NCBI GenBank assembly: GCA_031254315.1
Contig: JAIRUQ010000015.1
Span: 27,868-91,867 of the forward strand
Length of the DNA: 64,000 nucleotides
Direction: 5' to 3'
DNA from: Treponema sp.
GTDB taxonomy: Bacteria > Spirochaetota > Spirochaetia > Treponematales > Breznakiellaceae
The number at the start of each line of letters is the position of its first letter. The stretch's first letter is position 1. Positions 25,380 to 58,387 of the stretch are shown piece after piece. The position numbers and the translations under genes were made by a program. The notes beneath the pieces are model-generated. The model did not search any database. It worked only from the letters and a program-made list of their open reading frames with translations, and was not told the DNA's origin.

Positions 25380-25571
25380 TTTCTGTTTTTATTGACAGAC
25401 GCGGGACTCCACTCCAGCCCTCAACTCCTGTTTCGGGCTTCCGTGCCGGGGTTTTGTGCTAGCGGCGCACATCCTGTGCGCCTTCCCTCCCTGCCGGTCG
25501 GCGCACAAAACCCTTCGAGTCCCAAATTACTCGATTTTTTTTAATTATTCACAAGTTACTTGTTTTTTTAG
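25380..25571 (-). repeat. tRNA-Arg(CCG) 3'-end-duplicating structured element (element X)
   Basis: 30 bp tttctgtttttattgacagacgcgggactc at 25380-25409 exactly repeats 25572-25601 (tRNA-Arg 3' end plus flank). Internal stems GGGACTC/GAGTCCC (25403-25409/25517-25523), GTTTTGTGC/GCACAAAAC (25451-25459/25503-25511), GGCGCACA-TCC-TGTGCGCC (25464-25482). Confidence 0.85.
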
Positions 25572-25584
25572 TTTCTGTTTTTAT

Positions 25585-25658
<74 letters not shown>

Positions 25659-50010: not shown

Positions 50011-50235
50011 CTAATCTTTTTTACTAAAATCAACCTTGGGAATAACAACGGCGGATTTGGACGCGGCTCTGTTTTCAGCTTTGATCGCGTCGTAAACTTC
50101 CTGACGGAAAACTTTTACTTTTTTGGGCGCGTCAATTCCGATGCGAACCTGATCGCCTCTGATTTCTATAATAGAAATTGTTATATCGTCGCCAATTACA
50201 ACTTTTTCATCTACTTTTCTTGACAGTATAAGCAT
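50011..50235 (-). CDS. csrA: Carbon storage regulator CsrA
   Basis: [51 protein letters not shown]. Confidence 0.97.
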
Positions 50236-50239
50236 TATA

Positions 50240-50677
50240 TTATCCTTTAGCGTTCATTTCGGCTATAACGTCATGCTTTGTTTTCCATTTCGCGTCCGCA
50301 AGAATCGCCTGCATTGCTGTCATATTTTCCGTATTTATTACTATGGGTCCCTGAAGGTTAGCTGTTATGGGACCGCCATCCTGAGGAATCGTAATAATCA
50401 CAAGAATCATCGCATTCTCAGGAGATTTTAATCCAATTTCTGAAAGCTCTTCGTTGGTAATATTAAGCTCATAATCTTTTCTGAAGATAAAAGGGTTAAG
50501 CAAAATAAAGGCGATTTCTTTTTCATTAATCGACTGGAGCCAGATAAAAGGCTGAGCTTCCGCGTCAATTAATACATATTCCTTGTAATCTTCAAAACCA
50601 AAAAGCCCCTGGGGTATTGTTACCTTCTGTTTCTCTTCAACATCAATCTGACCAAAGGCTTTTGTGTCTACTTTCAT
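50240..50677 (-). CDS. fliW: Flagellar assembly factor FliW
   Basis: [50 protein letters not shown]; start at 50677 with RBS AGAGGAG. The upstream ORF-track start (50734) lies in the three-hairpin element. Confidence 0.94.
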
Positions 50678-50691
50678 AAAAAAACTCCTCT

Positions 50692-50808
50692 GACTTGCGA
50701 GAGAACCCGGTTGGTTCTCTCGCAAGTCCTGCATTTTCTCGGGCTAAAGCCCTACAAAAATGCGATTTTCTAATGAAGTTATTTAGAAACTGAAGTTTCT
50801 AAATAACT
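50692..50808. repeat. Three-hairpin repeat element, copy 2
   Basis: GACTTGCGAGAGAACC-CGGTT-GGTTCTCTCGCAAGTC (50692-50728); GCATTTT..GGGCT-AA-AGCCC..AAAATGC (50731-50763); AGTTATTTAGAAAC-TGAA-GTTTCTAAATAACT (50777-50808). Confidence 0.9.
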
Positions 50809-58037: not shown

Positions 58038-58111
58038 TGCGCCCGACAGGACTCGAACCTGCCACCTACGGATTCGAAGTCCGTTACTCTATCCAGATGA
58101 GCTACAGGCGC
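58038..58111 (-). tRNA. tRNA-Arg (anticodon TCG)
   Basis: Reverse strand GCGCCTGTAGCTCATCTGGATAGAGTAACGGACTTCGAATCCGTAGGTGGCAGGTTCGAGTCCTGTCGGGCGCA; loop CTTCGAA. Confidence 0.93.
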
Positions 58112-58128: not shown

Positions 58129-58312
58129 TGGGTGGATGACGGGTTTCGCCTTGCATTCGGCAACATCCTGTTGCCTCATTCCAGGCCGGAGTTCAGCCCT
58201 GACGCCGCCATCCATGGCGGCTTTTCCTTCGGCGGGCTGAACCCTTCGAAACCCGAATCTTTCCATAAACAATAAAAAAATTATTTTTTTTATAACCTCC
58301 CGAAGATTATAT
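58129..58312 (-). repeat. tRNA-His 3'-end-duplicating structured element (element Y)
   Basis: 20 bp tgggtggatgacgggtttcg at 58129-58148 exactly repeats 58313-58332 (tRNA-His 3' end). Stems GGGTTTCG/CGAAACCC (58141-58148/58247-58254), GTTCAGCCC/GGGCTGAAC (58191-58199/58234-58242), hairpins 58159-58175 and 58204-58221. Confidence 0.85.
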
Positions 58313-58314
58313 TG

Positions 58315-58387
58315 GGTGGATGACGGGTTTCGAACCCGCGACGACAAGATCCACAATCTTGTACTCTACCCCTGAGCTACATCCACC
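58315..58387 (-). tRNA. tRNA-His (anticodon GTG)
   Basis: Reverse strand GGTGGATGTAGCTCAGGGGTAGAGTACAAGATTGTGGATCTTGTCGTCGCGGGTTCGAAACCCGTCATCCACC. Confidence 0.94.

Follow-up and report, generated by a model that had tools for sequence, protein, structure and literature searches.

Small tRNA-linked elements of Spirochaetia with candidate CsrA-binding loops

Behind two tRNA genes of a Treponema sp. lie short spacers whose hairpins present GGA in the loop, and the 64-kb stretch of DNA that we analysed (the window) also holds csrA. Could RNAs of these spacers titrate CsrA, as the earlier note on this DNA had proposed, or do the hairpins belong to a general repeat family, which was its second thought? 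We found that both spacers, here called X and Y, belong to a family that looks mobile and targets tRNA genes, which bears out the second thought. That the tRNA-linked elements are also transcribed, bind CsrA and titrate it is a reading of sequence comparisons that we favour by a narrow measure. To our knowledge, spirochaetes have no established RNA antagonist of CsrA of the CsrB type, and FliW is the only antagonist known from them.

Two tRNA-linked loci in the window

All features described here are encoded on the minus strand. Y follows the tRNA-His(GTG) gene (58314-58386, predicted by ARAGORN and Rfam), whose 3′ half (58332-58314) is the target. It begins with an inverted copy of the T-arm, CGGGTTTCGAA (58245-58255), the 5′ strand of the outer stem P1. 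The core (58149-58244; RNA fold z = -4.3) follows, in which stem P2 encloses hairpin P4 and is succeeded by arm P5, and then a direct copy of the tRNA-His 3′ half, CGAAACCCGTCATCCACCC (58130-58148, identical to 58314-58332), which supplies the 3′ strand of P1 and the acceptor end. P4 is GCCGCCATGGATGGCGGC (58221-58204), that is GCCGCC-ATGGAT-GGCGGC with a hexaloop, and the P5 hairpin is GGCAACAGGATGTTGCC (58175-58159), GGCAAC-AGGAT-GTTGCC. A predicted tRNA-Arg(TCG) gene (58038-58111), likely the next gene of a tRNA-His operon judging from relatives that lack the element, lies beyond Y.

X stands behind a tRNA-Arg(CCG) gene (25585-25658; ARAGORN and Rfam) and is bounded by a 30-nt direct repeat, of which 17 nt come from the 3′ half of the tRNA and 13 nt lie beyond it (proximal copy 25572-25601, distal copy 25380-25409). 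Its inverted T-arm copy, GGGACTCGAA (25514-25523), again forms the 5′ strand of P1; P4 is GGCGCACAGGATGTGCGCC (25482-25464), GGCGCAC-AGGAT-GTGCGCC, and the apex of P5 is GAAACAGGAGTTG (25422-25434). X and Y thus each present two A(N)GGAX loops on stems, and the three GGA-loop hairpins that the earlier note had described sit exactly where it placed them. So does csrA (50011-50235), which encodes 74 amino acids and retains the RNA-binding residues L4 and R44. Directly upstream of it lies a putative fliW-like gene (50240-50734), whose name is taken from that earlier reading.

If a stem of five or more Watson-Crick pairs is required, the window has six hairpins with an A(N)GGA loop, and the three of X and Y named above are among them; first-order Markov simulations yielded 1.1 on average and never more than 5. 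The bare word CAGGATG, seen 9 times against 4.9 expected, barely exceeds chance, so the signal lies in the hairpin context and in recurrence among homologous copies.

A family of elements fitted to tRNA genes

By sequence and predicted fold, X and Y are copies of a small non-coding element family that spans the Spirochaetia. The elements measure ~110-140 nt and follow a tRNA or tmRNA gene at its 3′ side, in the same orientation as that gene. In X and Y a short spacer separates the tRNA from an inverted copy of its T-arm or 3′ half, after which come the core and a direct copy of the tRNA 3′ half. Every element is bounded in this way by two copies, one inverted and one direct, of the 3′ half of its own tRNA. 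In the genome from which the window comes (3.1 Mb in 127 contigs), 47 matches to tRNAs and one to tmRNA were counted, and about a third of the tRNAs carry one or several elements, often in tandem. A covariance model matched 30 sites here and was positive in 48 of 60 relatives, and with a broader model 99 of 393 genomes of the phylum were positive, all from one class; wherever a tRNA or tmRNA gene fell inside the fetched stretch, the element lay 3′ of it on the same strand. Many csrA-bearing spirochaetes (for example family f7) had no elements in the phylum-wide model search, which counts against a CsrA role. A degenerate P2/P5 pattern run on GTDB contigs gave 24 matches; of the 11 loci then tested with the model, one was positive, in a Treponema sp. 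metagenome-assembled genome (MAG) behind tRNA-Pro (L258). No similarity match was found in plasmids or phages, no Rfam family was matched (X and Y at the gathering threshold; X, Y and 20 loci at relaxed E), and we found no description of the family in the open-access literature.

The core folds into P1, which derives from the tRNA, P2, within which lie a variable P3 and hairpin P4, and arm P5, whose internal loops are symmetrical (GGA/GGA) and which ends in a hairpin. Stems are GC-rich and mostly of 6-10 bp. Among 65 members, 92.8% of cells were paired and two-sided changes occurred in 37 of 39 pairs. The covariation score was 0.57, as against 0.14 for shuffled and at most 0.09 for slid controls; the alignment was fitted to the structure and so favours it, and pairing in the slid controls fell to 28-40%. 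Tandem G-A mismatches (GCGAGC-like) occur in many stems, in elements of all families (for example L094 and L099). At several loci (L082, L083, L092, L095, L103 and others) the tRNA 3′ half, a terminator and the inverted copy make up a long, near-perfect palindrome centred on the terminator.

Signs of mobility appear at the tRNA-His/tRNA-Arg locus, which within the genus is element-free in some species (a gap of a few to ~30 nt) and carries one or two elements in others. Core types there differ between species, and the outer stem matches each species' own T-arm variant. The Y core shares 96% identity with a core found behind tRNA-His in another genome (G003) and 89% with one behind tRNA-Trp (G013). 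Of 40 comparable cores, the nearest relative stood behind the same tRNA in another genome in 26 cases and behind another tRNA of the same genome in 14, which suggests both descent and hopping. Past the tRNA end, the direct repeat can extend by 0-21 nt. Duplication of the tRNA 3′ half at the far end and empty sites in relatives, both seen here, are the marks of a tRNA-targeted integrative element, and these units of 110-140 nt encode no integrase. Behind the tRNA-His of genome G062 (L133), an inverted copy abuts the tRNA 3′ half with no core between, possibly an excision scar. Genome G060 has an island of ~46 kb with a tyrosine-recombinase-like gene at its tRNA-His 3′ end (contig C2, ~3230-49890; L117, L135), and a short element remnant, possibly truncated at its 5′ end, after the neighbouring tRNA-Arg (L135).

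Several known systems share parts of this design. Islands and prophages of tyrosine recombinases likewise insert at the T-loop or 3′ half of a tRNA gene, restore the tRNA and leave a distal copy of the 3′ half; the elements differ in being ~110-140 bp long and gene-free, in their extra inverted copy and in placing one core under many tRNAs. The rtT repeats of E. coli tyrT stand in tandem behind a tRNA and carry its 3′ end, as the elements do, but occur at one locus and are not known to have an inverted copy; we know of no CsrA-type loops in them. REP/BIME and other MITE-like palindromes are also small, dispersed and palindromic, whereas the elements are linked to tRNAs and have ends copied from the host tRNA; inspection by eye revealed no GTAG/CGTC tag beside the element palindromes.

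Apical loops and the presence of csrA

The tips of P4 and P5 are A(N)GGAX loops. In the recognition loop of RsmE/CsrA, as solved by NMR for RsmE, A and GGA are fixed, N is optional and X is free (PMC4005645); the CsrB repeat is CAGGA(U/A/C)G, and selection by SELEX gave the CsrA consensus RUACARGGAUGU and favoured short stems (PMC7652899), a preference against which the GC-rich element stems of mostly 6-10 bp stand. Among csrA-bearing genomes, 107 of 115 elements had at least one A(N)GGAX loop and 72 had at least two, and these loops stayed constant while the stems varied freely. Because the models were trained on sequences of A(N)GGAX type, we also counted a sample collected by way of the tRNAs, in which the model was not used; 27 of its 29 elements had such a loop. 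GGA, on whose conservation in homologous copies the earlier proposal had been made to depend, is therefore conserved on the whole. The exceptions are mostly ACGA, a loop that CsrA should reject, and fall chiefly in P5, where about one loop in six is of this kind.

The comparison can be extended to hosts without CsrA. In family f13, csrA was found in 0 of 119 genomes, yet 15 of these genomes carry tRNA-linked elements in which tRNA frame, terminator and core ends are the same. Only 2 of their 19 elements have an A(N)GGA loop, the other apical loops being ACTT, TGT, GGT, CATG and others. In family f4, elements were present in all three csrA-bearing genomes and in none of the five csrA-less ones. 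The scarcity of the loop in f13, together with the f4 pattern, fits selection for CsrA binding, as judged by comparison. The f13 contrast is that of a single clade, which may have an older subtype of element that lacked the loop from the start, and because elements of one clade are not independent, a Fisher test on the loop counts is not read as a probability. Three draft genomes with no csrA match (G234, G359 and G013) speak against such selection: of their 15 elements, 13 kept A(N)GGAX. The claim that the hairpins are candidate CsrA-type sites has thus gained from the comparison (107 of 115 elements in csrA-bearing genomes against 2 of 19 in the csrA-less family f13), and we regard CsrA binding by these loops as well supported on comparative grounds, plausible and somewhat on the probable side.

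CsrB, CsrC and RsmX/Y/Z resemble the elements in having a series of hairpins whose loops read CAGGA(U/A/C)G or A(N)GGAX; in these antagonist RNAs the loops bind CsrA. Such RNAs are, however, the products of one or a few dedicated genes of Gammaproteobacteria with many sites each, whereas the elements are dispersed in many places behind tRNAs and have about two sites apiece. Rfam models of Csr/Rsm RNAs gave no match at the gathering threshold, the best being PrrB/RsmZ at 15.1 bits (E 4.5). Two RNAs outside Gammaproteobacteria, TwoAYGGAY and Bacillaceae-1, were put forward as CsrA-binding in a motif survey; TwoAYGGAY has a pair of AYGGAY hairpins and a stem with tandem G-A pairs (PMC4333381), and its reported sources are human gut, Gammaproteobacteria and Clostridiales (PMC2864571). 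The elements resemble TwoAYGGAY (RF01731) in having two hairpin loops of AYGGAY type and tandem G-A pairs, and the RF01731 model gave no match at E up to 10 for the X and Y loci or up to 5 for 20 loci. We know of no tRNA link of TwoAYGGAY.

Two exact A(N)GGA palindromes are widespread in viral contigs, where none is tRNA-linked and few are paired. Pairs without a tRNA link, resembling arrays of CsrA-type hairpins, were seen in the viral contigs L273 (13282-13319) and L325 (2697-2737).

RNA or DNA, decoy or mobile element

A CsrA-titrating RNA would have to be expressed. Several relatives without an element have tRNA-Arg directly behind tRNA-His, with a gap of a few to ~30 nt, which places Y within a likely operon. 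Promoter-like sites were found before tRNA-His and at its 3′ end, and none between Y and tRNA-Arg. Lying between two same-strand genes with promoter-like sites upstream, Y is probably transcribed from the tRNA strand. In 8-bp stems read on that strand, G-T outnumbers A-C by 24 to 3, which points to RNA of the tRNA strand; in 6-bp stems the excess is only 13 to 7. Yet G-U makes up 2.5% of minimum-free-energy pairs in the elements against 12.5% in tRNAs, and sense and antisense folds scarcely differ, as would be expected of a DNA hairpin. Support for an RNA form is thus real but modest. An intrinsic terminator lies in the spacer between tRNA and element in 2 of 25 cases in the genome of the window, 2 of 44 in the genus and 43 of 109 outside the genus; the last figure speaks against a sponge.

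The comparison shows that the elements insert behind tRNA and tmRNA genes and reuse the tRNA 3′ half as their outer stem. What follows from there is our proposal. Since in this genus they stand within or directly behind tRNA transcription units, they are probably transcribed, and their RNA, for which Y is the best case, would be made on the tRNA strand and freed by tRNA processing. The RNA would be a three-way structure closed by P1, whose two stem-capping A(N)GGAX loops would stand 30-45 nt from each other, at a spacing suited to one CsrA dimer. CsrA would bind these loops, as their variation rules and the contrast with csrA-less hosts suggest. Supplied by tRNA-coupled transcription, roughly two with each element and as many as ~50 in a genome, such dispersed sites could titrate CsrA in parallel to FliW; this sponge-like role we infer. 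The near-absence of CsrA loops from the one large csrA-less branch suggests that the elements may be scattered CsrA decoys. More tentatively still, they may be mobile elements of a new class, in which a very small non-coding core would move from one tRNA gene to another, refit its outer stem to each by taking up an inverted and a direct copy of the 3′ half, and keep CsrA sites only where the host has CsrA, leaving a bacterial class with dispersed, tRNA-coupled decoys.

Much of the same evidence would suit selfish DNA whose hairpins fold in single strands for a recombinase or transposase acting in trans, in the style of attC or IS200/REP, A(N)GGA being a cue for the enzyme and CsrA irrelevant. 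Inserted and empty tRNA-His sites within one genus, the repeats with their 0-21-nt overrun, the tandem arrays, the re-fitting of one core to different tRNAs (as with Y and the tRNA-Trp core), the core-less and possibly truncated remnants of G062 and G060 and the avoidance of G-U all speak for it. Its difficulties are the G-T excess in 8-bp stems on the tRNA strand and the loops, which vary exactly as CsrA allows (N optional, X free) and are lost where csrA is absent; nor did a non-systematic look reveal an enzyme gene linked to the elements. We consider this reading rather unlikely. Mobility and loop evidence would be joined if the transcript of a mobile element recruited the CsrA of the host to serve the element itself, by protecting it, restraining its expression or helping it to spread, and not to regulate the host. 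We judge this less probable again, as csrA-less hosts still carry elements and the benefit to the element is putative.

Ordinary tRNA trailers serving 3′ processing or termination, or decayed att sites of islands, with GGA loops incidental, would explain the frequent terminators in the spacers of other families and the apparently true integrase island at the same tRNA-His 3′ end in G060. Such an origin is highly improbable given covariation and loop conservation across many families; moreover, island att sites bring neither an inverted copy nor a common core, and most tRNAs of the genome of the window have no element. Readings as a plain terminator or att remnant were dropped because of the covariation and loop conservation.

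If the elements do bind CsrA, CsrA activity would be tied to tRNA transcription and the RNA sites of a global regulator would be spread by a mobile element. Regardless of CsrA, the spread of a non-coding element that adapts to tRNAs poses a clear question.

The hairpins themselves appear to be invaded. In the genome of the window, two other repeat families, one of ~60-75 nt with ACCGCCGAATGGCGGT and one of ~130 nt with GGGCTAAAGCCCTCGCGC, lie inside GGATG loops of P4 or P5 (L014, 1224-1427; L006, 1643-1845; L041, L030, L019 and L048), as if these hairpins were preferred targets of the two families.
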